Source: Intestinibaculum porci (lineage in GTDB: Bacteria > Bacillota_I > Bacilli_A > Erysipelotrichales > Coprobacillaceae). Taken from it: DNA of 64,000 nucleotides. The notes below the pieces were generated by a model. The model had not been told where the DNA came from. It saw only the letters and a list, made by a program, of their open reading frames with translations, and searched no databases. Each line of letters begins with the position of its first letter. Position 1 is the first letter of the stretch. This document shows, one piece after another, positions 1 through 55,538 of the stretch. Location of the stretch: NCBI RefSeq assembly GCF_003925875.1, contig NZ_AP019309.1:2356001-2420000 (forward strand), read 5' to 3'. A program made the translations under genes and the position numbers.

Positions 1-816
1 ATTGACTGATGCAGCCATTTTCTCAATTGTGCCACTATCTTTCTGATGCACAACTTTGAAATCCTGTCCATCTAAACTCTTGTTTAACGTCATACTAACA
101 TGAACGGCATTCGCATCCGCTGGCTGTAATTCCTTACCATCTTTAAAGAAAGAAATATCAGCCCCAATAGCATCAGTAATGACTTTGTCATCTTTCACTG
201 TCTTCTTTGCAATATTTTTAGCGACAGTTGAGCTAACGGGAGTCACTTTCATTTCCGTGCCATTTGGGAATACGTTTGCATCCACACTAGCTGTTACTTT
301 TAACTGACTCGTTGAACCAGTAAAAGTCTGTGCCGGCATCGCATTTTCTGCAGCTTTCTTTTCTGCCTCAGCTTTTTCCGCTGCTTCTTTCTCAGCTTTT
401 GCCTTTTCTTCAGCGGCTTTCTTTTCAGCTGCTGCTTTTTCCTGTGCAGCTTTCTTCTCTGCTTCAGCTTTTTCCGCCGCTTCTTTTTCGGCTTTAGCTT
501 TTTCTTCAGCGGCCTTTTGTGCTGCCGACGGGTCCTCACCACTTGACTTATTGGCATCTGTTTTTTCTTCAACTTTTGTTGATTCAGTTGCCTCATTCGA
601 AGCAGGAGGAGATTCTTCATTGGTTTGACTTGTATTTGCATTATTATTTTCTGTTTCTGCTGTTACTGAGTTTTGATCAGAAACAGCAGTTGTTGTAGGC
701 TCTGAAGATACTGTCTCGCCTTGTGCAAATACACTCATTTGCATCATGGAAAAGACCATTGTCATCGCTACAACGTAGGAAACAGTTTTACGAGCAAATC
801 GTTTCATCCTGTCCAT
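1..816 (-). CDS. Surface protein, N-terminal part (runs off window)
   Basis: The frame stays open from an ATG at 816 to the window edge, giving 272 residues of a longer protein. AAGGAGG precedes the start. Residues 1-31 look like a signal peptide (basic MDRMKRF start, hydrophobic core, ending near VFAQG). An acidic Ser/Thr/Asn-rich stretch follows to about residue 80. Next comes an Ala/Glu/Lys heptad-like repeat (AAEEKAKAEKEAAEKAEAEKK type) to about residue 155, probably a long helix or coiled coil. The last part resembles the repeat domains of large Firmicute surface proteins (VFPNGTEMKVTPV motif). The function is unknown; adhesin or cell-wall protein is inferred from architecture. The missing C-terminus would show whether it has a sortase signal. 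Confidence 0.75.
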   Translation of the reverse strand, partial: MDRMKRFARKTVSYVVAMTMVFSMMQMSVFAQGETVSSEPTTTAVSDQNSVTAETENNNANTSQTNEESPPASNEATESTKVEEKTDANKSSGEDPSAAQKAAEEKAKAEKEAAEKAEAEKKAAQEKAAAEKKAAEEKAKAEKEAAEKAEAEKKAAENAMPAQTFTGSTSQLKVTASVDANVFPNGTEMKVTPVSSTVAKNIAKKTVKDDKVITDAIGADISFFKDGKELQPADANAVHVSMTLNKSLDGQDFKVVHQKDSGTIEKMAASVN

Positions 817-2231: not shown

Positions 2232-2255
2232 AAAAAATGGAGTCATGTGACTCCA
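2232..2255 (-). terminator. Rho-independent terminator of cupin gene
   Basis: On the minus strand TGGAGT and ACTCCA form a stem followed by six T residues, just after the cupin stop codon. Confidence 0.75.
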
Positions 2256-2894
2256 CTAATCAGCTAATTCAATGAGTAAGGCCATCTTGAATTGATGATC
2301 GGCTGTGACAGCGTGACGACCATTGTGATCGAACTTAAAGTTTTCACCCGCATGAATACGGTGTTCAACACCTTCATAAGTAATGATGGCTTCACCATCT
2401 AAGGCAAAGATTAAAGCATCGCCTGGGGCAGCGTGTTCGCTTAAACCAGTACCGGCATCAAAACTCATAATGACAAACTTCGTTGTTTCGTTATTGATGA
2501 TATCTCTGTTAATAATCTTTCCTTCCTGATAAGGTACTAAATCTTTTAAGGCCATTACCTGACCTGCGGTTACTGCATTCATGGTTTCTCCTCCTTCACA
2601 TTCGACATAAATGGCTTCTTCTTTGGCGACCACGCCAATTGGTGTATGAAGCGGTACAGAGTATAAATCTCCTTCATGAAGTGTCGCAATCACTTCATGA
2701 TGATTGGTCACTTCCATGATGCCTTTCATCATCAGCCATAATTTAGGACGGGCATAGGTTTCTTCACTGATGCTTGTCTCTGGGGCTAATGAGAATGTAT
2801 ATAACTGATCATTTTCCTTGCTGGAAATGGTACATCCGGGAACACTCGGATTATTCTCTGCAATGGAAAAGACTTTTCCTGCTTGACTTTTCAT
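2256..2894 (-). CDS. Two-domain cupin protein
   Basis: This 212-residue soluble protein has two cupin-like halves. The first (about residues 30-110) includes LHEGDLYSVPLHTPIGV; the second (about 135-210) includes GDALIFALDGEAIITYEG and IHAGENFKFDHNGRHAV. Each half has the GD...G and P/H-type turns of the double-stranded beta-helix. I chose the ATG at 2894 because GGAGGAG lies 5-6 nt upstream; an ATG 13 codons earlier has no such site. Cupins bind metals, sugars or small ligands, and this one could be a sensor or isomerase; the substrate cannot be told. It is monocistronic with its own terminator. Confidence 0.8.
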   Translation of the reverse strand: MKSQAGKVFSIAENNPSVPGCTISSKENDQLYTFSLAPETSISEETYARPKLWLMMKGIMEVTNHHEVIATLHEGDLYSVPLHTPIGVVAKEEAIYVECEGGETMNAVTAGQVMALKDLVPYQEGKIINRDIINNETTKFVIMSFDAGTGLSEHAAPGDALIFALDGEAIITYEGVEHRIHAGENFKFDHNGRHAVTADHQFKMALLIELAD

Positions 2895-2965: not shown

Positions 2966-4057
2966 CTAAGAAACCGTTATTAGACATTTTTGCGAAGCCG
3001 TATAACCGTTATAAAAAGCGGTAATTTCTGCCGTGCCTTTACCTACTGTTGTTGCTAAGCCATTGCCATCAACGGTTACGACATTCGGATTTGATGATGT
3101 ATACGTCCACTTAATATCACTATGGGCATACTGGACAAAACACTGCACTGTTTTTCCGATTTTTGAGGTTGTTATCGTACCTGGCTGCATGAGCGGCTGC
3201 TGGGTTGTAAAATCATAAGCGCGCACGGCTGATAAATTGTCTTCATTTGTTGCGGTTAATGTAATGGTATAATGAGCGACCTGATTGACTTTAAAAGTGA
3301 TATTGTGCGCATTGTTTTGGGCAATGATCGTGCCATCATCTAAAGTGACTTTCATGCTATAAGCAGTCTTATCGTTAGCATGATCAACTTTGCCCTGCAC
3401 TGTCACTTCATCACCTAATAAGATGTTTTTCTTACTTGCTGTCATGGCTGTAATATCTGGTGACTGCATTGTGCGAGAAGCCGTATCAGACGTTGTCGCT
3501 GCTGGCGCTGTTGATGTATTTTGACTGGTGACTTGCAAAGTGGCTTTTTTCACCGTCTTCTTATTGTGCTGATCTTTGGCCGTAACTTCTAAAGTATAGT
3601 TCCCGCTGCCTTTGATTGAAAAGGATGCTGATTTTGCTTTCGTATACTTTGTCAACGTTACTTTCTTGCCCTGATAGTGATAAGCATACTGATACTTTGT
3701 GCGACCAAAGCCGCCTTTTGCGGTTGTCTTGATGACAATCTTCTGTTCAACCACTGAAGCGGTAAAATTGAGCTTTAAAGGACGCACTACCTGAACAAGG
3801 CAGCGATAAGTTTTCTTGCCGGCTTTCGCTGTAATCGTCGCTTTCCCGGCCTTATGCGCTTGAACAACGCCTTTTTTCACTGAGATCGCTTTATTTGTCG
3901 ATGACCATTTGATCTTCTTTGCACCTTTCACTTTTAAAGTTGCTTTCTCACCAGTATAAAGATACAGTTTGGTCTTATTTAATCCGCTTTTGGCGTAAAC
4001 GTTACTCATAGAAAGGACCATACCGGCAGTGATAACCATTTGTAATATTTTTTTCAT
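2966..4057 (-). CDS. Secreted BIG_2 domain protein, candidate GtfAB substrate
   Basis: The 363-residue product has a signal peptide (1-22, ending SNVYA). A Lys-rich bacterial Ig-like (BIG_2) domain follows at about 25-90 (WSSTNKAISVKKGVVQAHKAGKATITAKAG). Then come a beta-rich domain to about 178, a Ser/Thr/Ala-rich linker at about 180-205 (SQNTSTAPAATTSDTASRTM), another Ig-like region, and a C-terminal BIG_2-type repeat ending NGYTASQKCLITVS. There is no membrane anchor or sortase signal. It starts 2 nt after the gtfB stop, so the pair is probably translationally coupled. That placement and the Ser/Thr linker make it a candidate for O-glycosylation by GtfA/GtfB; this is inference. Confidence 0.8.
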   Translation of the reverse strand: MKKILQMVITAGMVLSMSNVYAKSGLNKTKLYLYTGEKATLKVKGAKKIKWSSTNKAISVKKGVVQAHKAGKATITAKAGKKTYRCLVQVVRPLKLNFTASVVEQKIVIKTTAKGGFGRTKYQYAYHYQGKKVTLTKYTKAKSASFSIKGSGNYTLEVTAKDQHNKKTVKKATLQVTSQNTSTAPAATTSDTASRTMQSPDITAMTASKKNILLGDEVTVQGKVDHANDKTAYSMKVTLDDGTIIAQNNAHNITFKVNQVAHYTITLTATNEDNLSAVRAYDFTTQQPLMQPGTITTSKIGKTVQCFVQYAHSDIKWTYTSSNPNVVTVDGNGLATTVGKGTAEITAFYNGYTASQKCLITVS

Positions 4058-4059
4058 AA

Positions 4060-5382
4060 TTATAATTCTCCTAACATATGTTGATAATCTTCTTTTATTG
4101 ACGCGAAAGCATTGCTTTCCTGTTTTTCTAATTCATGTTGATAAGTTGTTTCATCTATCTGATTTAAGAGATGAACAAGCTCATCAACCTGATCTTTCGT
4201 ATAGATATGTGATTTTTCAATATAAGTGTGATCATGTAAGGTTTCTTCAAAGCCATAAATGACCTGATGATGAACAAATGCTTCTCTGAGGCTATTAAGA
4301 ATTTCATTGGCATAGTTGATATCTAAATAAAGACCGCATGTTTCAAAGAGTTTTTTCACATTATGTTCTTTGATATTAGGATAGAGATGGACATGATCAT
4401 AAGCGCCTAATGATAAGAGCTTGCTTGACATTTCAGTAATAGCCCCAATATAAAACTGGATATGAGGGCATCCTTTGATGATTGTCTCAATACTTTCAAG
4501 CTGATCAGAATTGGTCATAATTAATGCTTTATTATAATCAGGTGATGTCTCACTAAAGTGATAGATAAAGCCTAATGGGTCAATTAATTCTGATGAAACC
4601 CCCATAGCTAATAATTTCTGATAAGCATCACGGCGTTGGACAATGATATGGGATGTCCGATTACTGCGGCCTTGAATAATAGCCTGCATATTCCCCGGAA
4701 TGGTCTCCTTGATCTCCTCCTGCCAGAATAACAGATCTGGTTTGGTATCTAACGTCAGCATTGATTCAGAGAGGAAGAATGGTAAGGATAATGAGTTATA
4801 AACAATGCGTTCATGATCTAAGCCTAAGTCATGAATCATTGCTTTCACAAAATCAATCTTATTTTTATAAATGTACATTTTCCCCTGCTTGTTTAAGATG
4901 ATATCTCCGGTCATGAAATTCTCTACAATGACTTCTGCACCATGGACATCATAATACGTTTTGACAGTGCGATGATTATGTGCATCAAAACTGGTCTGGG
5001 CAAAGCGATGACCATAGACATCATAATGATCACTAGCGATCACCTGACCATTTGGTGATAAGTGATCAATAATCTTGATATAACGTTTACGTTTGGGTGA
5101 AGCATAGAAAATGCGGCCACGTAAGATCGCTCCATCATAAATTTCACCAGAAGAAGCGGTGCCTCGCACTTCATAAAAAGGCGGTAAGGCGACTCTATTG
5201 AAATAAAGCGGTAAACGCTGCTTCGTGGTATCACGGGTATAAAGATTATAAGGGGAAAGCACATCTTCCGGTAAAAAGCCATCATCATGAAAAGCAATGG
5301 CGGTAAAATCATAGCCCGCTGCTTTTAAGGACTGATAGAGATCATGGGACGAAGTATCAAAGTCTTCAAATAAATAAATCAT
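4060..5382 (-). CDS. gtfB: Accessory-Sec type glycosyltransferase stabiliser GtfB
   Basis: The 440-residue product resembles GtfB of the SRR-adhesin O-glycosylation system. GtfB is a GT-B-fold partner without its own transfer activity that recognises the acceptor protein and activates GtfA. Seen here are the N-terminal extended beta-sheet region (MIYLFEDFDTSSHDLYQSLK, YDVYGHRFAQTSF, MYIYKNKIDFVK) and a degenerate GT-B C-terminal half (YNKALIMTNSDQLESIE, FYIGAITEMS, HLYPNI). The ATG at 5382 overlaps the gtfA stop as ATGA, with GGAGG 7 nt upstream, so an upstream in-frame ATG was rejected. It acts in the cytoplasm with GtfA. No secA2, secY2 or asp genes were seen nearby. Confidence 0.82.
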   Translation of the reverse strand: MIYLFEDFDTSSHDLYQSLKAAGYDFTAIAFHDDGFLPEDVLSPYNLYTRDTTKQRLPLYFNRVALPPFYEVRGTASSGEIYDGAILRGRIFYASPKRKRYIKIIDHLSPNGQVIASDHYDVYGHRFAQTSFDAHNHRTVKTYYDVHGAEVIVENFMTGDIILNKQGKMYIYKNKIDFVKAMIHDLGLDHERIVYNSLSLPFFLSESMLTLDTKPDLLFWQEEIKETIPGNMQAIIQGRSNRTSHIIVQRRDAYQKLLAMGVSSELIDPLGFIYHFSETSPDYNKALIMTNSDQLESIETIIKGCPHIQFYIGAITEMSSKLLSLGAYDHVHLYPNIKEHNVKKLFETCGLYLDINYANEILNSLREAFVHHQVIYGFEETLHDHTYIEKSHIYTKDQVDELVHLLNQIDETTYQHELEKQESNAFASIKEDYQHMLGEL

Positions 5383-6875
5383 TGTACATCCTCCAATAGT
5401 TCTGCCCACATTTTCTGGACGTTTTCATCAAGATAGTCTTTCGCAATGGCATAGGAAACATCAGCCATCGCCGCAAAATCATCACGTTTGGCTAAGGCTA
5501 TAATGGCCTCTGACAGCTTTAAGACAAGACTGTGTTTGTCTTCATCATCGCCTTTTTCAATCAGGTAGCCGTTTTGTCCTTCTTTCACAAAAGTGGTATT
5601 GCCATAAGTGACATCAAAGCCAATAATCGGTAAGCCGGAACCGACCGCTTCTAAGAGCGTTAAGCCGAATCCTTCGGAGCCTGAGGCCGATAAATAGCCT
5701 TCATAGTTTTTGAAAACTTCATCTAATTTCTGATGACCTTTCATGGTGATATACGATGAGGCATTGTGCTCCTTGATCGTCTTTTCAATAAGCTCCACTT
5801 CTCCGCCACGACCATATATATCAAAGGTGATATCTGTAATAACTTCATGCGCTAAAGCGACGGCTTCAACGAGATAATCGACATGTTTTTCACTTGCTAA
5901 ACGAGAAGCGGTCATATAGGCATGATGCCGACGTTCAGGATTATGTTTGAGTTCACTGATTGAACCAACCGGAATCGTGACGATCCGCGGTGTCGCCTGA
6001 TAGTAATGGGCAAACTGCTCTCTGAGGGTCTTAGCTTGAAGACGCGTTGAGGCAATATAGAAGTCGACATATTGATACTGATCAAAACTGTATTCATAAT
6101 AATTATTCCAGAGGATATTATATTCATCCATCAGGTCTTCATTAAAGTGTTCCGCATGAATGACTACGCCTACTTTCGCCTGACCACGATTTTTGAGTAA
6201 GGCCCCTTCCATGCCGGTGGAACGATCAATAATCATGACATCGCCCTTTTGAAAATTAAGACAGGAAAGGAAATAGCCAATGAAATCTTCTTTATTGAAG
6301 AAAAACTGTGGTCCTACACGATAAGTAACATTCTCGCCATCGATCATTTCTTCTAAGGCAATGGTGCCATTTTTATTCAACCAGCAGCGACGATACAGAT
6401 AAGCTTTATTATCTTTAGGCGCATAATACTCGGTAAAGAGACGATCATATGTGAAATAATCTTTACGAATGAGTTTCCCGCGAGAAACGTATTCCACGCG
6501 ATGAATAAAGTGAGAATGGGGTCTTACTAAATACGCGGTATAGAAGCGTTCATCGGGAAAGGTATAGACGATCCGATCTTCTCTTTCCTCCTTTTGATAA
6601 TCACTGCGATCAAAAGTGCTTTCTAACACTTGCGCAGTATATGTGGTAGGCGCAATTTCCTGATCGGTAAAGTACTGATAAAGCCAAATGACTTCGTCAT
6701 CACGTAATCCGATATTACGCGTCATATGTTCAATATTTTCATACTGGAACATATCCATAAAGATAAACTTAGCGTTCTGATGAATTTTTCTTAAGACTTT
6801 GGCCCGGTAAGCCTGGGCGTATTCAACGCCGCTAGAAGCCCAGCCAATGCCTAAATTAATATTGTATATTGTCAT
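5379..6875 (-). CDS. gtfA: O-GlcNAc-type protein glycosyltransferase GtfA
   Basis: The 498-residue GT4-family enzyme matches GtfA, which transfers GlcNAc from UDP-GlcNAc to Ser/Thr of serine-rich surface proteins. The N-terminus (MTIYNINLGIGWASSGVEYAQAYR) is characteristic, followed by the extended beta-sheet domain and a GT-B catalytic half. The donor-binding motif GSEGFGLTLLEA (E-x7-E) lies near residue 400, with GRGGEVELIE before it. AGGAGG lies 5 nt upstream of the ATG. It is the first gene of the gtfA-gtfB-BIG_2 operon. In streptococci these genes sit in an accessory Sec locus; here the pair stands without visible accSec genes or an SRR adhesin. Confidence 0.87.
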   Translation of the reverse strand: MTIYNINLGIGWASSGVEYAQAYRAKVLRKIHQNAKFIFMDMFQYENIEHMTRNIGLRDDEVIWLYQYFTDQEIAPTTYTAQVLESTFDRSDYQKEEREDRIVYTFPDERFYTAYLVRPHSHFIHRVEYVSRGKLIRKDYFTYDRLFTEYYAPKDNKAYLYRRCWLNKNGTIALEEMIDGENVTYRVGPQFFFNKEDFIGYFLSCLNFQKGDVMIIDRSTGMEGALLKNRGQAKVGVVIHAEHFNEDLMDEYNILWNNYYEYSFDQYQYVDFYIASTRLQAKTLREQFAHYYQATPRIVTIPVGSISELKHNPERRHHAYMTASRLASEKHVDYLVEAVALAHEVITDITFDIYGRGGEVELIEKTIKEHNASSYITMKGHQKLDEVFKNYEGYLSASGSEGFGLTLLEAVGSGLPIIGFDVTYGNTTFVKEGQNGYLIEKGDDEDKHSLVLKLSEAIIALAKRDDFAAMADVSYAIAKDYLDENVQKMWAELLEDVQ

Positions 6876-7263
6876 AGCTCCTCCTAAGGTAATAATACAC
6901 GAAATGAATCACCACGCCTAAAATGACTTATGTTCATGATCACTGCAAAATCATCAAATACTTACATATTTAAAAAACCCTATTCTGCATATCCGATTTT
7001 ATATTCATCGATACTCATTGATTATTAGATATTTTATCGTTACACTCTTTTCATCAGTATTTAATAATGCCAATCAATATAATCAATGAGATCGTTTATA
7101 TTCTTTCCAGCAATAAGATTATTTTCCTCATTAACAGAATGTCTAGTACAGCTGACTATAAGTGAAAAAACAATTATTGTAATCATTAGATTCCAATGTT
7201 ACTTCCATTTTACGCTTAATCTTGATCTTATTCCAAAACAAAATACTTCACTCAATAAAAAAA
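6876..7263. other. Intergenic, AT-rich
   Basis: Very AT-rich spacer upstream of gtfA. It must hold the gtfA promoter, but no clear -35/-10 pair stands out. The small plus-strand frame at 7086-7283 lacks a ribosome-binding site and coding character. Confidence 0.35.
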
Positions 7264-7281
7264 GACATCCGAAGATGCCTT
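7253..7281 (-). terminator. UUCG-loop terminator
   Basis: On the minus strand AGGCATC-TTCG-GATGTCT forms a stem with a stable UUCG tetraloop, followed by seven T residues. It ends the zinc-ribbon protein gene and overlaps its last codons. Confidence 0.85.
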
Positions 7282-8431
7282 AAGCGAAACTGACTTCTGA
7301 GAGGCAGGTATCATGATAACTGCTGCCGCGATATACAGAGACGATTTTGATGGTAATCTTTTTCGTCTTATGGACCTTATAGAAGGTCAGTTTCTGTTGA
7401 CGATTATAATAATCATTTAAAGTACGGAATTCTTTGCCATCATCGAAGATGAAGTAACAAGATTTCACGCGGTTATTGCGATAGTAAATGGAATAGCTCT
7501 TATCATAGCCATTGTAGATGCTCGTTGAAGTGACCTTAGACTTTTGTTTAAGGGTAAAAGTAACGGTTTCCCCAATCCCATCACCATCAGCGCCTTCGTT
7601 CCAGGCAGTTGTCGGATCCCCATCGGTTAAGACAGAGGGACTATAGTTAAAACGGCTGCTCTGGAGTGTTGAAGAAGCTGCAACTGAAGCGATCGTTGGC
7701 GTTGAAGAAATTGTCTTCTTCGCTTTATTCGTCGTTGTTTTGGTAGACGTTTCGGTTGTAGTTGTCGAAGTACTTTTCTTCTTTGACATAAGAATACCGC
7801 CAAAGATCAATGCCACGACTAAGACTAAGCCTAAGACTTTAAACGGAATGAGACGAATGCTGCGACGTGGCTTCACCTCGATGGGATCGCCAGGATGATA
7901 GATTTTCGTGGCTTCTTTATCCTGATCATAATCTTCTTCATCACGATCCATAACAAAGCTTTTGACCTTATGTTTGAGGCCCTGCCGATTTTCTCGCGTT
8001 TCCTGATCCTCTTCTTCATGCTCATCTTTAGGCGGGAAGAGGTAATCTTTTAAACGCGCAAAATAAACTTTGAAACCGTGTTCTCTCGGTTCTTCAATAT
8101 CTTCGTAAGGTTCTTCTTCATCGAATGCGAAGCCCTGTTTGTTTTCCTGAGGCTCATCCTCTTCAAGATGAAAAGCTGTTTCTGGGGTTGTTTCCCGGTT
8201 ATAGAAATCCGTATGTTCTTGTGTATCAAAAGTTTCGGATTGCTCACTTTCGGGCTCTTCGTTTATATCTTCATGATAAATGTTCTTTTCAAAGAAGTCA
8301 TCGCTGCTTTCTTCTTCCTCACGCTGCAGTTTTTCAACGTATTCACGTTTACTGCGCTTAAGGGGCTGTCCACAATGTTCACAGACAAACGCTGAATCAG
8401 GATTATCTTCTCCACAATAAGGACATCTCAT
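7280..8431 (-). CDS. Zinc-ribbon membrane protein with C-terminal discoidin-like domain
   Basis: The 383-residue protein begins MRCPYCG with a zinc ribbon (Cys 3, 6, 17, 20). A long, strongly acidic, probably disordered segment runs to about residue 190. One membrane helix lies at about 195-216 (IPFKVLGLVLVVALIFGGIL), then a Thr/Ser/Lys linker. The C-terminal beta domain (about 245-383) has the pattern PSVLTDGDPTTAWNEGADGDGIGE seen in the discoidin-like domain that PGAP calls NADase-type glycan-binding. The zinc ribbon should be cytoplasmic and the beta domain outside. I chose ATG 8431 (AGGTGG upstream, typical zinc-ribbon start); an ATG at 8455 also has GGGAGG. The function is unknown; a wall-glycan sensor is a guess. 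Confidence 0.8.
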   Translation of the reverse strand: MRCPYCGEDNPDSAFVCEHCGQPLKRSKREYVEKLQREEEESSDDFFEKNIYHEDINEEPESEQSETFDTQEHTDFYNRETTPETAFHLEEDEPQENKQGFAFDEEEPYEDIEEPREHGFKVYFARLKDYLFPPKDEHEEEDQETRENRQGLKHKVKSFVMDRDEEDYDQDKEATKIYHPGDPIEVKPRRSIRLIPFKVLGLVLVVALIFGGILMSKKKSTSTTTTETSTKTTTNKAKKTISSTPTIASVAASSTLQSSRFNYSPSVLTDGDPTTAWNEGADGDGIGETVTFTLKQKSKVTSTSIYNGYDKSYSIYYRNNRVKSCYFIFDDGKEFRTLNDYYNRQQKLTFYKVHKTKKITIKIVSVYRGSSYHDTCLSEVSFA

Positions 8432-10639: not shown

Positions 10640-10945
10640 TTGTTAAGCAATCAAAAACATAGAAATATGTACGTAAACATAGATAAGAGAGGACACATTA
10701 AGTCTCTTGTCTATGGCTTAACAATAGGTTTCGAGCCTAAGTGACTGCTACTATCGAAAGATATGTTGCAGATATGAACTATATTAAGCAGTAAGGCAAA
10801 GACACACCTTTAGATGTAATCTTCAGTCTAAAGCTCTGTGAGTGCGAACCAAGAAACAATGCTAATGTCCTGCATTGATAACAGGGAAACACATGTCCTC
10901 TGCTCGATATTGGCACGAAGAGAAATGCTCCGAAAGGAAGGTGTC
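10640..10945 (+). ncRNA. omegaRNA (HEARO-type) of IscB element
   Basis: This 300-nt non-coding stretch precedes iscB and folds extensively. TTGTTAAGC (10640-10648) pairs with GCTTAACAA (10716-10724). Stacked inside it, CATAGATAAGAGA (10678-10690) pairs with TCTCTTGTCTATG (10703-10715) with one G-T. A small ACATA-GAAA-TATGT hairpin (10657-10670) sits in the junction. A further hairpin TAGGTT-TCG-AGCCTA follows at 10725-10739. IscB proteins use an RNA encoded just upstream as guide scaffold, first noted as HEARO RNA. The position and paired structure support this; the exact ends and the guide segment cannot be fixed by eye. The 3' end may overlap the iscB start. Confidence 0.72.
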
Positions 10946-10949
10946 AGAA

Positions 10950-12191
10950 ATGACATGTTATGCTTTTGTATTGGATGCTAATAATAAACAATTAGCACCA
11001 ACTAAAGAACAGAAGGCTTGGTTTCTTATTCGTAAGAAACGAGCAACATTGGTCAGCAAATATCCAATGGTGATACAACTTAAAAAGAAAATTCCAGATC
11101 AAGAAATCTGCAAAGATGAAATTCGTTGTGGAATAGATGACGGCGGTCTTCATGTTGGTGTCGCATTAGTACAGAAATGTCAGACGCGAAACAAAGTCAT
11201 TTTTAAAGGAACTATTGAACAGCGTAATGATGTAAAACATCTTATGGACGTTAGACGTGGATTTAGGCGTTATCACCGTGATCATAAAAGATATAGACCA
11301 GCGAGATTTGACAACAGAAAATCCTCTAAACGAAAAGTGAGAATTGCACCAAGTATTTTGCAAAAACGTCAAGCAACAATAAGAGTTATCAATCAACTTA
11401 ACAAATGGATAAATATAACGAATTATTGGTTAGAAGATGTTGCTATTGATATAAGAGCATTGACAGATGGCTATAAACCATATCGGTGGCAATATCAAAA
11501 ATCAAACAGACTGGACGAGAATATCCGTAAAGCTGTCATTTTACGAGACGGCTGCAAATGTATGGAATGTGGAAAATCTAATTGTAGATTAGAGGTTCAT
11601 CACATTAAGCCAAGAAGACTGAAAGGTTCAAATACGCTTGGTAATCTTATTACGTTATGTACAGGATGTCACCAGAAAACAGAAGGAGTAGAAGAATTAT
11701 ATATGAACAGATACTTCGCTTTGTTAAATTCTTCTGACAATAAGAACCTGAATTACGCACAGCATGTAATGATAGGTAAAAAATGGCTGAGAGAACAGTT
11801 ATCAAAATTAGGAATGTTACATTTAACCAACGGAGGTGATACAGCCAATAAGCGTATTGACTGGGGTATTGCAAAATCACATTCTAATGATGCCATATGT
11901 ATCACAGACCTGCGACCAGACACATGTGAAATCAAAGAATGGGTAATAAAACCTATGCGAAGACAAAGTAAGGCTAAGACAGATAATGTTCTTGGAATTA
12001 AACAAAGGGATTTGGTTGAGTACACTTTTATGAACGGTGAAACACATAGAGGGTATGTAACAGCTTTATATCCAGAACAAAACGCTCTTAATTTTCAAAG
12101 TCCAACAAAAAATTGCAAGAAAGTTAACGCAAGAAAATGCAAAGTGCTTTGGAAATATTCTAAGATTTATTGGTTAGATAATGTGAGTTAG
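10950..12191 (+). CDS. iscB: IscB RNA-guided HNH/RuvC endonuclease
   Basis: The 413-residue protein has the full IscB layout. The N-terminal PLMP-like segment ([15 protein letters not shown]) is followed by RuvC-I (GIDDGG, Asp63), an Arg-rich bridge helix (about 100-140, [20 protein letters not shown]) and RuvC-II (LEDVAID, Glu162). The HNH domain (about 195-245) has Cys204/Cys207, the HHIKP motif (His217/218), Asn232 and Cys237/Cys240. RuvC-III is HSNDA (His311, Asp314). A C-terminal PAM/TAM-interacting region ends the protein. All catalytic positions I can identify are present, so it should be active. The ATG at 10950 has AGGAAGG 8 nt upstream. IscB, an ancestor of Cas9, cuts double-stranded DNA guided by the omegaRNA encoded upstream. 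Confidence 0.92.
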
Positions 12192-31406: not shown

Positions 31407-33170
31407 TTAATGGCTCATATAAGGCGCTGACTTCTTATATTTTTTTGGCCAGTTATAGGAAGAAGTGTAGACCCACATGGCATCCTGCCATGAATGAAGC
31501 GTGCCGGCTGCGACACTGATTTCCTTTTGACCATCACGTTTATAATGAATATAAGTGAGATACGGATCACTGTGATCATAAGTCGCCGGCGTATCAATAT
31601 ATTTATAGACATCATAAACGGGTTTAGGCTGGTTCTTTTCATCTAAGAGACCACATGATAAGCCAACTTTCGTTTCATCCTGATGATCTTTAAGGCGATA
31701 AAAGTTAAAACTCTTAATAAAGGATAACTGTGAGGCTTTATAGTAAGCCTGAGCAACGCTAGCTGCCTGCTGGTTTTGGCTTTCTTTTGTATTTGAACCT
31801 GATGAAGGTCCCCCTTCGGTTAAGTAAACAGAGCGCATCTGCCCTTTATACTTGAGGCTGTTTTGATCTAAATATTCACCTAATACCTCTAAGTTAGAGA
31901 AGGTAATAATCTTTGAAGTATTATAATCTCCCGTCAAATTGCCCGTCTCCACATCACTGCCGGCATAATTGCTTTTGGTATTAATGGCACTATATAAATG
32001 CGGCGCAATAGCCCAGTCGTAGGCCCCACGAGCATTGGTATAATGCGCTAACCAATCGAGCATTTCTTTAGGTTTGAGACAATAGCCATAAGCCGCTGCA
32101 TCTACTTCACTCTGTGCAGCATTCCACATATGGGTAAAAGGCACAACAACCTGTGCATTCGCTGCATATTTTTTCACTGCTAAGTTGCTTAAACGTAAGG
32201 TTCTTTCATATTCTTCCATATAGGTATTGAGATCATGACAGTTATAGAAATAATAAGTGGAATCAATCTCATTTGAGATGACATAATTGGAAATATAGCC
32301 CTGCTGAGCATTTTGCGAATAACGCTTGGCAAGAAATTCCATCGTCGCAATAAGGTACTCACGTCCTAGATCATTAGCTGTATTTGTCCCCATCAGAGTA
32401 TTGCTGACAGGGGAATCATACTTAAGGGCGTCAGGATAAGTGGTATAATAGCCGCCGCTTTTCCAGGCCGCGATAATAGCAATGACATTCATATGACGTT
32501 TGGAAGCTTCCTGAACATACTTATCATATTCACTTACTGCGTCTTTATGGAAATAGTACATTTTTCCATTCACTTTCATCGATATAGCATCATTAGGAAT
32601 CATCATCGTTTTTCCATTGACTGGTTCGTTAGAATAAATGAGCTCTGAAATCGCAATATTAATAGTAATGGACTTCACGTTTAAGTCGTCAGCATATTTG
32701 AATTCATTTTCCCGATCTGCATCCGCAAACATCCCTTTGATCGTACTTTGTTTAAAACGAACATTCTGATTTTCTGATAAGATGTCTGTAGCATAGACCG
32801 GGCCATAAAGAATAGTGTTTTCATAAATAACATAATATTTATAATATAACGCATCATAGCCGTTTGTATAACGATCAATCGTAAAGGTTCTATTTGTCCC
32901 ACAGCGATAACGACCAATGAAGGTTCCCTGACTTTTCACACTACTGCTTATACCCCTTATTGTATCAGTAGAATAATAGTCATTGGCATGATAGGCATAT
33001 ACATAGGCATGACCGCTCACACCTAACCGATGAAGGGAAATCACTACCTGATTTTTTGTGACTGATACGATCATTGGATGATTAGAACCCTGAGATTTAT
33101 TCTGATAAAGATAAAGACTTGAGAAAACAAGTGTAATCATGAGTAATACAATTGCTAATTTTTTCTTCAT
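31407..33170 (-). CDS. DUF5722-like secreted predicted glycosidase (copy 1)
   Basis: The 587-residue protein has a signal peptide (about 1-26, or an uncleaved anchor), an N-terminal beta domain with repeats like YAYHANDYYSTDTIRGISS, and a catalytic-looking domain from about 155. Glu pairs expected of a clan GH-A TIM barrel are seen: SNEIDST (acid/base position after strand 4) and YLTEGGPSSG (nucleophile position after strand 7), with NVIAIIAAW between. DUF5722 is a family of unknown function; glycosidase action on polysaccharide is inferred from these motifs and from its place next to the exopolysaccharide operon. Confidence 0.78.
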   Translation of the reverse strand: MKKKLAIVLLMITLVFSSLYLYQNKSQGSNHPMIVSVTKNQVVISLHRLGVSGHAYVYAYHANDYYSTDTIRGISSSVKSQGTFIGRYRCGTNRTFTIDRYTNGYDALYYKYYVIYENTILYGPVYATDILSENQNVRFKQSTIKGMFADADRENEFKYADDLNVKSITINIAISELIYSNEPVNGKTMMIPNDAISMKVNGKMYYFHKDAVSEYDKYVQEASKRHMNVIAIIAAWKSGGYYTTYPDALKYDSPVSNTLMGTNTANDLGREYLIATMEFLAKRYSQNAQQGYISNYVISNEIDSTYYFYNCHDLNTYMEEYERTLRLSNLAVKKYAANAQVVVPFTHMWNAAQSEVDAAAYGYCLKPKEMLDWLAHYTNARGAYDWAIAPHLYSAINTKSNYAGSDVETGNLTGDYNTSKIITFSNLEVLGEYLDQNSLKYKGQMRSVYLTEGGPSSGSNTKESQNQQAASVAQAYYKASQLSFIKSFNFYRLKDHQDETKVGLSCGLLDEKNQPKPVYDVYKYIDTPATYDHSDPYLTYIHYKRDGQKEISVAAGTLHSWQDAMWVYTSSYNWPKKYKKSAPYMSH

Positions 33171-33610
33171 AATAGCACTCCTTTCTTCCCATCATCTCAT
33201 AGGGACTGCAAATAAACCCAAACATTTTTCCTTTTCTTGACGCTATTCTACGCAAAAAAGCAGAAATCGTCAAATCAGCAATTCTGCCTTTCATTCTGAT
33301 TATAAACATAGAAATTATTGCAAATGCAATGGCCTTTACAAAAAATAATATTAGCAATATCTTCCCACTTAGCTGTTACGTTGACCGATGGATTTACCTT
33401 CTTATTTAACGAAAGAAGTTTTTTGTCGGTTACCGACCGGATGATTTTTTTAGCGATTGTTTTTAAGGTAAAGTGTATAACTTTGCTCTTTTGTAATCTT
33501 CTTTGATTTTACCGACAATAGTAGCGATGCAGCAGATACTGGATTTGTGAAAAGCAGAGATAACCCTGTGATTGATAATTGAATAGAATGTGCATCTTTA
33601 CAAATATCCA
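33171..33610. other. Intergenic, AT-rich
   Basis: No supported gene. A short palindrome GTCGGT-T-ACCGAC at 33425-33437 lies about 255 bp upstream of the copy-1 DUF5722-like gene, with further GACCGAT and ACCGAC-type sequences around it. It could be an operator; the promoter for the secreted gene must lie here but is not obvious. Confidence 0.35.
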
Positions 33611-33642
33611 AAATAATATAAAACAGGACGATCAGGTCCTGT
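33611..33642 (-). terminator. Terminator of beta-helix gene
   Basis: On the minus strand ACAGGAC-CTGATC-GTCCTGT forms a perfect 7-bp stem followed by TTTATATTATT. It overlaps the second stop codon of the beta-helix frame (33642-33644), not the premature stop, which supports the longer original gene. Confidence 0.75.
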
Positions 33643-34589
33643 TACTGCAGTTCATATTTTCCATTTACATAGTTCCAATTATTAGAAATATTCTCGTTGG
33701 TATTGTCACCATAATTCACAAGATATCTTGCAATGTTTTTGCCTTTATTGTTTTGACATGTGACACCATTGATATTCAAGAGTTCAATGGCATCGCCTCG
33801 TACTTTGTTGAAGGTATTATTTTTGATTGTAAAGTTCTTATGTTTGTATTTTAAGTATTGTGGTTCATTATAATGGGTGCCGATGCCTGATAATACATTG
33901 GTTAATTAACAGTTGGTAACGGTAATATTCTCGCAGGTCGTATGGTCATAGGGAATGGTCGTCCCCTGCCCTTTAATGGCTGAATCAAATGCGATGGCTA
34001 GACCGCCAATGAGGTTTTGTTTTCTCTTTGTCCCTTTATAGAAGTAATGATGAGAGATATTGACATGATCAATCTTTGCATTCTTGACAGCATTGACTTC
34101 AATCATATGCATTCCCGAAAAGTTCTTCCAGGTCATATTTTTGATTGTCAGATTATGTCCATGATCAATTTCAATGCCTTTATGATAGTTGGTCGCATTA
34201 TCCTTATGAATTTGACCATCCCAAATACCGCCTTCGATGACGACCTTACTAAAGCCGGTATAGCCCTTCTTTAAGGGATGGAAGACAATAAAGGCATTTT
34301 CAGGATGCTTCGCAAAGAATTTCTTTTTCATAACGGTTTTGGCACTGGCTTTTAAAGTGATGTTACGGCGCAGATAGATCTGTTGGGAATAGAAGGTTCC
34401 TTTCGGAATCGTCACCGTAGCCCCGCTTGGTGCACTATCAATTGCTCTTTGAATGGCATAGGTGTCATCTTTCTTGTCATTTGCTTTAGCGCCAAAGCTT
34501 GTAACGGAAATGTTTTTGGCACTTACCGGCATACTCATCATTGCCGAAACAAGTAGTGAAGCCGTTATTACTGGTATATATTTCTTCAT
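33642..34589 (-). pseudogene. Secreted right-handed beta-helix (pectate-lyase fold) protein, one in-frame TAA
   Basis: The ATG at 34589 (GGAGG upstream) starts a signal peptide (to about PVSAK), then the GAKANDKKDDTYAIQRAIDSA motif of pectate-lyase/GH28-like beta-helix proteins. Repeats such as FSKVVIEGGIWDGQ, NLTIKNMTWKNF and NAKIDHVNISHH are beta-helix rungs. The frame meets TAA at 33906-33908 after ENITVTNC. The same frame then runs open for 87 further codons with more rungs (FTIKNNTFNKVRGDAIELLNI) to TAA 33642, where the terminator begins. The truncated product would lack the last rungs. Intact relatives act on polysaccharides. Confidence 0.8.
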
Positions 34590-34631
34590 AAATATATCCT
34601 CCATCTTTGTTTGTTTTATCACTACACGCGT

Positions 34632-34661
34632 AAAAAAGGAATGCCATGTAAATGACATTCC
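34632..34661 (-). terminator. Terminator, near-identical to that at 35383
   Basis: On the minus strand GGAATGTCAT-TTAC-ATGGCATTCC is followed by six T residues. It ends the 34678-35289 gene. The same stem occurs at 35383-35406. Confidence 0.85.
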
Positions 34662-34677
34662 CAGTATTATTCTCTTA

Positions 34678-35289
34678 TTATTTAGATTGATGTGTTAAGC
34701 CTCTAGAATTTGGGCGTTTATATGATTTGAAAGCATAAATTGATTTAGTATTTTTGTAATATTTATTCCTCAGCTTATTATAGTTTCCCTTTGTACCTTT
34801 CAAACGATAACCATTTTCTCTTAATTCGTAGTCCCCAGGTGCGTTATCAAAATAGGCTTTTTCATAAAGCTTTTTATTTTTAATGCCTAGTGCCTGAATT
34901 TCTTGATATCCACCGCTACCCCATAAGTGACCTTCTGAAATCCAGCAATTCCTTGCTTTATTAATTCTCGTAGGAACGGTAAATTGAGAATTAAGAATCA
35001 CAGCTTTTCCATTCCTATACGTTGCCACAAAGTTAAAACCTTTCCAATTGCCTTTTCCAAGTAAGAAAAGTTCTGGAGTGCCATCTTTATTTAAATCATA
35101 AGTGAAATAGCGTCCAACATTAATCTTTTCTTCCATGTATTTCTCATAATAGCTGATTTGATTCTTTAAAGCACCATGGGGATTGTTGATAACCTTGGCA
35201 TAAGCGCTAGTATAACCACTCGCATAAACAGGTGATGTTCCCACAAATAATAAAGATGATGTCATTAAGGCAGATAATAATTTCTTCAT
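34678..35289 (-). CDS. Secreted protein, 203 aa, unknown
   Basis: A signal peptide (1-23, ending PVYASG) leads a small domain with YDLNKDGTPELFLLGKGNWKG. The DLNKDGxPEL loop is like calcium-binding FG-GAP or dockerin-like loops seen in Firmicute secreted proteins. The rest has no match I can name. It has no anchor and is probably secreted. GGAGG lies about 8 nt upstream of the ATG. It lies between two other secreted-protein genes with its own terminator. The function is unknown. Confidence 0.75.
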   Translation of the reverse strand: MKKLLSALMTSSLLFVGTSPVYASGYTSAYAKVINNPHGALKNQISYYEKYMEEKINVGRYFTYDLNKDGTPELFLLGKGNWKGFNFVATYRNGKAVILNSQFTVPTRINKARNCWISEGHLWGSGGYQEIQALGIKNKKLYEKAYFDNAPGDYELRENGYRLKGTKGNYNKLRNKYYKNTKSIYAFKSYKRPNSRGLTHQSK

Positions 35290-35374
35290 AGTTAATCCTC
35301 CTCTTCTTTCTTATCTCCTTATACCATCATTATAGCACCGCTTTTTTCAATCTCGCCAAAAACGACATATCCTT

Positions 35375-35406
35375 GCAAAAAAGGAATGCCATATAAATGA
35401 CATTCC
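35375..35406 (-). terminator. Terminator of DUF5722-like copy 2
   Basis: On the minus strand GGAATGTCAT-TTAT-ATGGCATTCC followed by six T residues. Twin of the terminator at 34638-34661 (one loop base differs). Confidence 0.87.
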
Positions 35407-35415
35407 CTCGAATCA

Positions 35416-37134
35416 TTAACGTTTAGTGATCTTTTTCCAAGACCATTTCTTATTCCAGTTAAATGAAGTACTATAAACATTCATAGCTGACTTCCAAGAC
35501 GTTGCTTTTTTAGCTGAACCTTTTCCATTGCGCTTATAAGAAATGTATTTCAGATAACCTTTTGTCCAGGCTGAAGAACTCTTTGTATCAATGTGCTTAT
35601 AGACCTTGTAAGCTGGTTTCTGAGAACCATTTGATTTAAGTAAGCCAACTGATAAACCATTCTTTGCTTCTGAAGCCTCATCTTTTAAACGATAGTAGTT
35701 GAATGATTTAATGAATGGTAAATGAGCGACTTTATAATATTCATAAGCGACTGTCGCCGCCTGATATTTAAGATTCTTTGTCGAGATCTTACCAGAAGAA
35801 GCACCTGATTCTGTTAAGTATACACTTCTCTGTTTACCATTATACTTAATTGTATTTAAGTAACTGCTTAAGACTTCTAAATTAGTAAATGTTAATTCTT
35901 TCGTTGTCTTATAGTTACCTGTTAATACACCCATTGAACTATCAGATAATGTCTGCTGTGCTTTTGTATTGACAACGCCGTAGCAGTGTGGTGCTAAAGC
36001 CCAGTCATAGTTCCCCTGTGCTTTTGATGTTTTAGCTAACCAGTTGGTCATCTTTAATGGTGCGAAAGATGGACCAGGACATTCTTTGAAGACCTGACCG
36101 GCACTCTTTGCCCAGTAATGTGTATATGGTACAGCAACTTTCACATTACCTGCATATTTCTTAATAGCTAAGTTAGATAAACGTAAAGCTCTTGAATATT
36201 CTTCCATGAACTTATTGAAGTTGCTTGTATTATACCAATAATGTGTAAAGTCAATTTCATTACCTAATACATAAGTACTGATATAACCATTGGCTTTAGA
36301 CTGAGAATAACGATGAGCTAAGAATTCGATCATCGCAATAAAGTCATCACGACCAGTAGCATTAGATGTGTTCTGACCCATTGTGATCGTACTCTTAGGT
36401 GAGTTATATCGTAATGCTTTCGCATAAGTATTGTAGTTTTTATTTGTCCAGGCAATTAAAATACCAATGACATTCATCTTTGCGGCTGAAGCTTTCTGGA
36501 TCACAGAATCATAATAGTTAACAGCACTGGTATTAAAATAATACGTCTGTCCATTCACCTGATATGGTGTTGCATCAGCCGGAGCAACGCTCTTAGAAGC
36601 ATACATCAATGTGCCTAAATCAATGTTTAATGTAATTGATGAAACACCTAAATCTTTGGCATATTTGATATTAGATGCATCACCTTCTGTATAGAGACCT
36701 TTCACTGATTTCTGAGTGAAACCGATGCTCTTTTTAGCAGAGGCAATAGAAGTCGCATAGATTGGTCCTTTCACAATCGTATTACCATTTAATAAATAAT
36801 ACTTGTTATATAAACCATCACGACCATTGGCATCATAACGATTCACTGTAATCGTTTTAGACTGACCTTTGCTTACTTTTCCTAAAGCTGTTCCTTTTGT
36901 TTTTACTGATTTGGATACACCTCTAGTGGTATCCTTTTTCGCATATTCATTGGCAGAATAAGCATAAAGTGTCCCACTTTTTTTAGCTTTGGTGATCTTA
37001 ATCTTGATCTTACTTGCGGTAACGCTGACACTCATAGTGTTACTTGCAGCGGAAACATTCTTCACTGGATTAGCGAAGACAACAGATAAGATCATTGAAA
37101 AAGCAATCACAAAAAATAGATTTTTCTTTTTCAT
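35416..37134 (-). CDS. DUF5722-like secreted predicted glycosidase (copy 2)
   Basis: The 572-residue protein has a clean signal peptide (1-30, ending NVSAAS). Residues 33-140 form a beta domain (SGTLYAYSANEYAKKDTTRGVSKS). The probable TIM-barrel part runs from about 150 to 500. The predicted catalytic pair is Glu293 (GNEID) and Glu442 (YLTESG), both matched in copies 1 and 3. The end (WKSAMNVYSTSFNWNKKWSWKK) is also shared. It lacks a wall-binding or anchor domain. The enzyme would act outside the cell; its sugar substrate is unknown. AGGAGAACG-type sequence precedes the start. Confidence 0.8.
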   Translation of the reverse strand: MKKKNLFFVIAFSMILSVVFANPVKNVSAASNTMSVSVTASKIKIKITKAKKSGTLYAYSANEYAKKDTTRGVSKSVKTKGTALGKVSKGQSKTITVNRYDANGRDGLYNKYYLLNGNTIVKGPIYATSIASAKKSIGFTQKSVKGLYTEGDASNIKYAKDLGVSSITLNIDLGTLMYASKSVAPADATPYQVNGQTYYFNTSAVNYYDSVIQKASAAKMNVIGILIAWTNKNYNTYAKALRYNSPKSTITMGQNTSNATGRDDFIAMIEFLAHRYSQSKANGYISTYVLGNEIDFTHYWYNTSNFNKFMEEYSRALRLSNLAIKKYAGNVKVAVPYTHYWAKSAGQVFKECPGPSFAPLKMTNWLAKTSKAQGNYDWALAPHCYGVVNTKAQQTLSDSSMGVLTGNYKTTKELTFTNLEVLSSYLNTIKYNGKQRSVYLTESGASSGKISTKNLKYQAATVAYEYYKVAHLPFIKSFNYYRLKDEASEAKNGLSVGLLKSNGSQKPAYKVYKHIDTKSSSAWTKGYLKYISYKRNGKGSAKKATSWKSAMNVYSTSFNWNKKWSWKKITKR

Positions 37135-37235
37135 AAACGTTCTCCTTCTTTCATTAATCTATCCGCCTCAAGTATACCTCGAGAACAAACCGCATTCAAG
37201 TTTCATTCCTGATCCTTTGAGGTTGACTTAAGTCA

Positions 37236-39011
37236 TCACTGCATAGTACTTTTCACTGCCACATAACTTTCAGTCCCATCATTCGCACTTCTGAAAGTGG
37301 AAACGATAAAGTTTTTATAGACTAGTAAGCCATCATCCCCTGTTCCAAAACAGCTACTATGATAACTTGTCGATAAAGGCTCGCCAATCAGTCGCTTAAG
37401 GGTTGCAATTGGCGTTGCAGACGTTGCGGCCTTTCTTAACAGATTTGTTAAAACACCGTCATAATGACCTTGACCATCAAATGCATAGAACATATTATTA
37501 TAAGCCGCAATACCCGTTACAGCCATGCCATTGTCATAATAGAGTTTCTTCTTTTTCTCATCCCATTTGACAATACGAGTCGGCTTTTTGGTTTTGACCG
37601 CCTTCATCTGGGGAGCTTTCATTAGTTTCAGCTTTTTCACCTTGTCTTTAAGTTTGATGGCAAAGCCATCGGCTTTATTAGGCTGATAAAAAGTCTTGCC
37701 AATCACAACATAGTTGGTCTTTTTGTGTAAAGCAATGGTAATTTTCTTTTGTCCAAGAGCATAAGCAAGATACGCAAATGCACAAACTTTTGCATCTCGA
37801 CTATTCTTACCATTAAAGAAATCAACGGCCACTAATGCCGGATTCGTTTTATTAAATGTATAGGTTCGCGCTTTCTTTTTACTTTTATATTTCACTATCT
37901 GATCGAAATAATGCTGGAGACGTTTTTTACCTTTATAAGGATGCTTTTTAAGATATTCTTTAGCATAGAAAAGAGCTACCATCTTTTCTCCTTCTTTTGT
38001 GGCAATCAGCTGGGTATCCTGATTATAATAGCGACCATTAAGCTTATACATAATCAGTTTGCCTTTTTGATCTGCATAATAAGTATATTTATTTTTCTTA
38101 TAGATTCCCTTTCGCAAAGCCCCGGTATCTTTATCAAAGCAGTAATAAACATTGCCAATCTGATAGAGACCCTTCACGATAATCCCATTGACATAATAGT
38201 AACGATGTTTCTTCTCATTAATCCAGCCATTTTTGGGGGCAACGGAAGGATTTGATAAATCCGCAAAGCTATCGCCCACATCCATAGTAATATCGGCCTG
38301 CTCTAAAACTTTATAAGCAATGTATTTCATCCCCTGATCATTAGGATGCAAAGCCACATCCTTACGCGTAATTGTATAAGAGTTGCCATCCTTATCATAA
38401 AGGATACCACCAATTTTATTCATATAATTGGGATTTTTCGTGATTTGATGTAATGAAGCAATATGACAATTCATATCTCTTGCCACATTGTTTAAGATCG
38501 TTGTACTCTTTTCAGGAATACTCATATCACGATAATGGAAATCGGCTAAGAAATCCATTACCAGAACCACTGTCGCCTGAGGATTATACTGTTTCACCAC
38601 ACTGACAAAATGACGTAAGTTTTCCTCATACACATCGAGGAGTTTTTTATTTCCGATCTGATCTGTATTTTCAATAACCACTAAATTATATGGATGGTTT
38701 TGACTCAGCTCTTTAACCTCTGTTTCATCCACTTGTAACATGCCTGTATTGGTTTGCCAGTAGATGTTCTTAACGTCATAGTTAACCTCATCATAGTGTT
38801 TCTTAAGTTCATTTTGAACCTGATGGACCCAGTCCATCTCTGCCGTAGAAGCCCCCATACCACAGTTATTGTACCAGACTAGCGGAGTATAAGGCGTTTA
38901 GGTGATACTATCCCCTAATGCTAAAAAACGATATGTGCTTTGGGCATGCACAACCTGTAATGTGCTTACGCACATCAGCAGACTGACCATGAACGATATT
39001 AATTTCTTCAT
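37236..39011 (-). pseudogene. Secreted SGNH/GDSL hydrolase with wall-binding repeats, one in-frame TAA
   Basis: The ATG at 39011 (AAAGGAAG upstream) starts a signal peptide (ending VVHAQS) and the SGNH block I FLALGDSIT. Codon 38 is TAA (38898-38900). The same frame then continues unbroken to 37236 for over 550 codons with the rest of the SGNH domain (NLVVIENTDQ; VVLVMDFLADF; DVALHPNDQGMKYIA, block V with Asp and His). YYVNGIIVKGLYQIGNVYYCFD-type repeats of cell-wall-binding kind follow. The later part is a Lys-rich beta region. As it stands only 37 residues would be made from the proper start. Confidence 0.82.
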
Positions 39012-39087
39012 AAGTTTCTTCCTTTCATTATAAATTCAAAGCGTTTACATAAAAAGATCAAGAGAACGGCTACCTTAAAGATAACCT

Positions 39088-41400: not shown

Positions 41401-41414
41401 AAGTTTCCTCCAAA

Positions 41415-41444
41415 AAATAAAAATGGCCTTATGAAAGACCATTT
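41415..41444 (-). terminator. Terminator after BIG_2 gene
   Basis: On the minus strand AAATGGTCTT-TCAT-AAGGCCATTT forms a 10-bp stem (one G-T) followed by TTATTTTTT. It separates the 41454-42044 gene from the next one. Confidence 0.8.
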
Positions 41445-41453
41445 CTTAACCAA

Positions 41454-42044
41454 CTATTTGACAGTGACTTTAACACTCTTTGTTAAACCATTGGCTTTAG
41501 CATAAACATAAGTTGTGCCTTTTTTCTTACCAGTGATAGTACCATTTTTCACAGTCGCTACCTTGGCATTTTTTGAAGACCATTTTACTGTATTAGCTGG
41601 CTTAACAGTCTTGGCTTTTACAGTATAAGATTTCTTTACTTTAACAGTGACCTTAGATTTGCTTAAAGTTAATGTTGCCGCTTTCACTGTAAAAGTAACA
41701 GTGTATTTCTTAGAGCCTTTCTTGAAAGTGATATTGACTTTTCCTGCTTTTTTAAACTTCACAACACCTTTGCTTGTAACTGTCGCAACTTTCTTATTGC
41801 TTGACTTAAAACTTTTAGCTCCCGATAACTGAATTGTCACCTTTTGGAAAACATAAACTGTTTTAGCTGTCTTTGTCTTTGTAACTTTGACTTTAAGACT
41901 TGATGGTGTTGTTGCAGATGTAATTGTAGCCAACTGATCAGCTGTATCGCCAGCAGCATTTACAACACTCATAGGTAATGCTGGTGTCGCCCCTAACACG
42001 GCAGCAGCAGTTAATACTGATGCAAATTGTTTTTTAAGATTCAT
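41454..42044 (-). CDS. Secreted Lys-rich BIG_2 protein
   Basis: The 196-residue protein has a signal peptide (about 1-31, LPMSVVNAAG). Two tandem BIG_2 domains follow (about 60-125 and 128-196), with the pattern KSSNKKVATVTSKGVVKFKKAGKVNITFKKG and WSSKNAKVATVKNGTITGKKKGTTYVYAKA. It is strongly basic. There is no anchor. BIG_2 domains occur in bacterial adhesins and wall-associated enzymes; this one is only BIG_2, so it may coat the wall or bind polymer. GGAGGTAAG precedes the start. Confidence 0.82.
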   Translation of the reverse strand: MNLKKQFASVLTAAAVLGATPALPMSVVNAAGDTADQLATITSATTPSSLKVKVTKTKTAKTVYVFQKVTIQLSGAKSFKSSNKKVATVTSKGVVKFKKAGKVNITFKKGSKKYTVTFTVKAATLTLSKSKVTVKVKKSYTVKAKTVKPANTVKWSSKNAKVATVKNGTITGKKKGTTYVYAKANGLTKSVKVTVK

Positions 42045-55484: not shown

Positions 55485-55538
55485 AGTTTTCATACTCCCT
55501 TCTCACTTGAGAAATATTTCATTTCTTTTTTCTAATCT

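Follow-up and report, generated by a model that had tools for sequence, protein, structure and literature searches.

Intestinibaculum porci (Coprobacillaceae) is predicted from sequence to encode an intact pair of accessory-Sec-class glycosyltransferase proteins, GtfA and GtfB, that lacks its exporter. The pair lies in the window analysed here, a 64,000-nt stretch of the genome (NZ_AP019309.1, positions 2,356,001 to 2,420,000), directly upstream of a gene for a secreted immunoglobulin-like (Ig-like, Big_2) protein. With moderate confidence, we propose that GtfAB modifies Ser/Thr-rich linkers of proteins exported by the general Sec route, the Big_2 protein being the leading candidate because its gene is placed so tightly behind gtfB.

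Identity and arrangement of the gtfA and gtfB genes

The following genes, all three real, intact and on the minus strand, and one protein region are central to the analysis.

5379..6875, minus strand: gtfA, putative O-linked N-acetylglucosamine (GlcNAc) transferase subunit, 498 residues (TIGR02918, GtfA_EBD, Glycos_transf_1)
4060..5382, minus strand: gtfB, putative acceptor-binding partner/chaperone of GtfA, 440 residues (TIGR02919)
2966..4057, minus strand: secreted Ig-like (Big_2) protein, candidate substrate, 363 residues (Pfam Y_Y_Y, PKD, Big_2)
3449..3529, minus strand: Ser/Thr/Ala-rich linker of the Big_2 protein (residues 177-203), candidate glycosylation region

GtfA matched the accessory Sec GtfA equivalog TIGR02918 over its full length (660.5 bits, cut-off 574.6), and GtfB likewise matched the accessory Sec GtfB equivalog TIGR02919 (467.9 bits, cut-off 338.3). 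The solved GtfA 5e9t aligned with the window protein over its full length at 524 bits, with the SEGFGLTLLE motif retained, and the Gtf2 chain of 5e9u/5e9t aligned with nearly all of GtfB at 302 bits. The stop codon of gtfA overlaps the start of gtfB (ATG 5382) in the sequence ATGA; a longer gtfB start offered by the open reading frame (ORF) tool, GTG 5409, is unnecessary. Only 2 nt separate the gtfB stop from the Big_2 gene, whose ribosome-binding site, AGGAGA, lies within the gtfB tail. The overlap and the 2-nt junction with its internal ribosome-binding site imply co-expression of the three genes. An earlier note on this DNA, made from the letters alone, had described both junctions correctly. 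It had also placed the end of the operon at the Big_2 gene; the gtfA-gtfB-Big_2 order stands, whereas a cupin gene farther downstream probably belongs to the unit as well (see below).

Absence of accessory Sec genes and serine-rich repeat adhesins

The genome searched comprises 3.21 Mb in one contig and is estimated to be 98.9% complete. A SecA family search recovered one full-length SecA, which scored 1044 bits with the housekeeping SecA model (cut-off 800). SecA2 is absent genome-wide, as this lone SecA reached 852 bits against the SecA2 cut-off of 930, and Asp2 had no match anywhere in the genome at E<=1. Asp1, Asp2 and Asp3 gave no tblastn match within the window, the genome-wide search having covered Asp2 and not Asp1 or Asp3. 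No secY2, asp1-3, secA2 or serine-rich repeat (SRR) gene was found near gtfAB, and no remnants of exporter genes adjoin the pair.

The KxYKxGKxW signal did not occur above cut-off anywhere in the genome. SRR-like Ser/Thr/Ala tracts were sought with a codon-run pattern, which gave 32 hits in four clusters; the two largest clusters and one more are antisense to coding sequence, including ribosomal protein and RNA polymerase regions, and no such tract was found, with one hit cluster (959438-959493) left uninspected. The pattern does recover the SRR genes of Holdemanella; it could miss SRR proteins encoded with other codons, and the test for SRR absence is therefore weaker than that for SecA2. The earlier note had seen no accessory Sec or SRR gene, and had held that an SRR adhesin with accessory Sec genes elsewhere in the genome would speak against its proposal. 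The genome-wide search for SRR adhesins and secA2 did not find this combination.

Descent of the gtfAB pair

Among the 43 genomes of the family, gtfB was found in two, the studied genome and that of Kandleria vitulina, whose locus is a complete accessory Sec system (secY2-asp1-asp2-asp3-secA2-gtfA-gtfB). Across the order, gtfB scored above cut-off in 5 of 316 genomes, and in each of the remaining four SecA2 adjoins gtfAB. Accessory Sec genes lie within 10 kb in 73 of the best 80 GtfA relatives from named genomes; the genomes of the remaining seven all encode SecA2 elsewhere. In these seven and two check genomes, the same kind of SecA search returned two or more SecA proteins, with SecA2 over cut-off (9/9). 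Other exporter-less gtfAB pairs were not added by a class-wide sample of 395 genomes, and none was seen on plasmids, where the most divergent hit sits in an accessory Sec locus and 16 staphylococcal/mammaliicoccal loci were left uninspected.

The window GtfA and GtfB share 61% and 42% identity, respectively, with the Kandleria proteins, with conserved motifs and full-length frames. A maximum-likelihood tree joins GtfA to the accessory-Sec GtfA of Kandleria (support 100/100), and in a quick tree GtfB groups with Kandleria GtfB (support 98). Together with the loci of the family and order and the best GtfA relatives, both trees indicate at the level of sequence that the pair is of accessory-Sec descent, the exporter having been lost or the pair having moved without it. 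In the empty-site synteny comparison, a genome of the same genus (G019, 82% complete, no gtfB detected) has both flanking-gene homologues at contig ends.

The Big_2 protein as candidate substrate

Three sequence features favour the Big_2 protein as a substrate of GtfAB, namely its tight operon coupling, its signal sequence and its Ser/Thr/Ala linker. Its N-terminus is an ordinary short hydrophobic signal sequence ending ...NVYA-KS, in agreement with the earlier note, and the calculated isoelectric point past this sequence is 9.9. In some accessory Sec loci, of Liquorilactobacillus and S. thoraltensis, the position downstream of gtfB that the Big_2 gene holds here is taken by the SRR adhesin itself. 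By a crude criterion, an ORF within 100 nt (<=100 nt) past gtfB with a strongly hydrophobic N-terminus was present in 3 of the 68 comparison loci having a downstream ORF. The Big_2 protein bears none of the SRR hallmarks: it has a single linker, no long Ser-rich repeats and no long signal peptide of the KxYKxGKxW type. Ser and Thr make up 47% of the linker over 30 residues and 33% over 60, compared with 67% over 60 residues in a Holdemanella SRR fragment. The AlphaFold model of the Big_2 protein alone was too weak to use (pLDDT 46), with the linker at low confidence and mostly strand-free.

Several observations weigh against the Big_2 protein as the partner of GtfAB. Its linker is short and no richer than those of other secreted proteins in the genome. 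Within the window it ranks third by Ser/Thr content, after another Big_2 protein and the upstream neighbour of gtfA, whose tract (63% over 30 residues) is the richest among the window ORFs; elsewhere in the genome, Ser/Thr tracts reach 43-50% in GH25 muramidases and 50% in a giant surface protein. Single Big_2 modules are common in the genome and the family, and the adjacency could be due to chance. No full-length Big_2 homologue was found among the 43 family genomes, and no second genome among those compared has the gtfAB-Big_2 arrangement, so selection on the partnership has no support from conservation. The Ser/Thr/Ala-rich linker pointed out earlier is thus present and not distinctive. Of the minimal O-glycosylation system proposed with it, the orphaning of the pair from accessory Sec holds up; the assignment of the Big_2 protein as substrate is weakened by its unexceptional linker and the unconserved partnership.

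Other proteins of this kind were observed. About 125 kb away in the same genome, two GH25 muramidases encoded side by side, with Big_2 repeats and linkers rich in Ser/Thr (locus L166, 2029-5777, minus strand), are possible substrates. A secreted 850-residue Big_2 protein with tandem TSDQTTTTDQKD repeats is encoded at window positions 52941-55493 (minus strand). In Kandleria vitulina (G026), which has accessory Sec and gtfAB, a LytR-CpsA-Psr protein (locus L165, 339-2201, minus strand) carries a C-terminal poly-Ser tail in which Ser/Thr reach as much as 90% over 30 residues.

Proposed function and alternative explanations

In the studied genome, GtfA would be the catalytic subunit and GtfB the holder of the acceptor in a cytosolic priming complex that puts GlcNAc on Ser/Thr. 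The ancestral pair would have served an accessory Sec/SRR adhesin locus whose exporter genes are absent from this genome, and its present targets are most likely the unfolded Ser/Thr-rich linkers of proteins leaving by the general Sec route, which would be lightly O-glycosylated. The operon-linked Big_2 protein would be the first-choice substrate, and other Ser/Thr-linker proteins of the cell may also be modified. We infer this activity, sugar, substrate and export route from two precedents. Gtf1/Gtf2 starts Fap1 glycosylation in Escherichia coli, and no accessory Sec protein is needed for the reaction (PMC5207161); the glycosylated Acm2 of Lactobacillus plantarum, which has a signal peptide, is modified intracellularly before export and then secreted (PMC5796085). 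By the same reasoning, GtfAB could work without SecA2 and Asp2 in the studied genome. A narrower proposal, that GtfAB was re-purposed after the loss of exporter and adhesin into a dedicated two-gene cassette for the one operon-linked, general-Sec Ig-like protein, is tentative and rather doubtful in our estimation.

Alternatively, GtfAB could be a general system for other Ser/Thr-linker proteins, such as the F5/8C neighbour upstream and the GH25 muramidases, with the Big_2 gene a passenger in the operon. The Ser/Thr contents given above for these proteins accord with this, and muramidases are among the known glycoproteins of L. plantarum and L. buchneri (PMC5796085). However, similar linkers are found in homologues whose genomes have no detected gtfB: the F5/8C homologues in G019 bear them too, showing that the enzyme is not required and that Ser/Thr linkers alone say little. 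The 2-nt coupling to the Big_2 gene is also left unexplained, and we regard this alternative as unlikely, though the strongest of those outside our proposal.

It is less likely still that gtfAB is left over from a vanished accessory Sec/SRR locus, intact by chance or through recent loss and without a present substrate. The missing accessory Sec genes, the nearest kin lying in a complete accessory Sec locus and the patchy distribution in the family (2/43 genomes) fit such a history. Nevertheless, both frames are intact and full length, and the motifs are conserved at the stated divergence from Kandleria, which indicates function over a considerable span; no exporter-gene remnants were seen beside the pair either.

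It is very improbable that the acceptor is something other than a protein, for example teichoic acid or a glycolipid. TarM-type wall teichoic acid glycosyltransferases are the next relatives of GtfA in the PDB after the true GtfA entries, and Enterococcus faecalis proteins named gtfAB have been tied to diglucosyl-diacylglycerol synthesis (PMC5542707). The TarM match is, however, only about 87 bits against the 524 bits for GtfA, and both equivalog matches, the GtfA_EBD domain and the accompanying GtfB speak against this reading. Finally, that an accessory Sec system or SRR adhesin of divergent sequence was missed is scarcely credible and for SecA2 nearly refuted: the completeness estimate falls short of the full genome and the pattern could overlook SRR proteins that use different codons or residues, but the genome has one full-length SecA where all nine comparison genomes have two or more, and Asp2 was without a match even at E = 1.

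Limits of the transcription unit and other features of the window

The surroundings of the three genes are as follows.

2256..2894, minus strand: two-domain cupin protein (Cupin_2, Pfam), with homologues in genomes without gtfAB
2236..2257, minus strand: terminator-like hairpin 3' of the cupin gene (-12.4 kcal/mol, z -5.4)
7262..7281, minus strand: terminator-like hairpin 3' of the upstream gene, upstream limit of the unit (-8.9 kcal/mol, z -5.1)
7280..8431, minus strand: upstream neighbour (F5/8C protein; Pfam/NCBIfam), alternative candidate substrate

Terminator-like hairpins mark positions 7281-7262 and 2257-2236, and the 71-nt gap between the Big_2 and cupin genes has no such site on the minus strand; the transcription unit is therefore likely gtfA-gtfB-Big_2-cupin, with the cupin gene last. 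The presence of the cupin gene is probably incidental. The upstream neighbour consists of a zinc ribbon, a membrane segment, the Ser/Thr-rich linker and an NADase-type F5/8C domain.

Elsewhere, window positions 1-816 (minus strand) belong to a 4468-residue surface protein continuing to the left (locus L007, 5410-18816), which has an Ala/Glu/Lys-rich repeat near its N-terminus, numerous tandem repeats and, behind a VKTGD-like motif, a membrane anchor at the C-terminus. A 438-residue protein with RRXRR and HNH domains, of IscB-like architecture, is encoded at 10875-12191 (plus strand); no guide RNA was recognised for it, and no Rfam match was found anywhere in the window. Positions 31407-42044 (minus strand) encode three DUF5722 proteins and a further Big_2 protein, adjoining genes for polysaccharide glycosyltransferase and rhamnose (rml-type) functions.

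Significance and comparison with known systems

Glycosylated SRR adhesins are reportedly unable to take the ordinary Sec route (PMC5796085), and GtfAB and SecA2 have for this reason been regarded as one unit. The same enzyme class without SecA2 would offer a simple natural system in which to study the targets of GtfAB beyond Ser-rich repeats and the extent of glycosylation compatible with export by general Sec. With two enzymes and one small acceptor, it may also serve as a minimal cassette for the production of proteins with O-GlcNAc-type modification.

The closest known system is the GtfA/GtfB of Kandleria vitulina, of the type of the streptococcal Gtf1/Gtf2 (PDB 5e9t/5e9u), to which the studied pair is orthologous in both subunits (by equivalog and tree) and alike in gene order and in the overlap. 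In GtfA/GtfB systems, GtfA transfers GlcNAc to Ser/Thr while GtfB holds the acceptor in the cytosol (PMC5796085, PMC5207161). Unlike the accessory Sec loci, the studied pair has no exporter or SRR gene nearby and its genome no SecA2 or Asp2.

In L. plantarum, GtfA/GtfB (Gtf1/Gtf2, TagE5/TagE6) adds a HexNAc, likely GlcNAc, to the Ala/Ser/Thr-rich domain of Acm2 (PMC5796085). Secreted proteins other than SRR adhesins are thus already known to be glycosylated by two-enzyme systems, and by analogy the studied pair may likewise O-glycosylate an Ala/Ser/Thr-rich region of a secreted protein. The L. plantarum pair is, however, a general system under separate locus numbers (lp_1299, lp_1311; PMC4919987), whereas ours shares an operon with its candidate substrate. 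The staphylococcal SdgA/SdgB resemble it in having surface targets other than SraP-type SRR proteins (the SD-repeat proteins ClfA and Pls) and genes often beside the substrate (PMC5230774), but belong to a different family (131 and 106 bits for the window GtfA; cut-offs 800). The GtfE/GtfF of Streptococcus salivarius are a GtfA/GtfB-like pair apart from the accessory Sec locus (PMC6973325); their substrates, in contrast, are SRR proteins exported by the accessory Sec system present in that genome. The E. faecalis gtfAB was set aside as a precedent, as the paper itself states that other enzymes are required for AtlA to be glycosylated directly (PMC5542707). Against this background, the novelty lies in a genome without SecA2 that has an accessory-Sec-class pair operon-linked to an Ig-like secreted protein.

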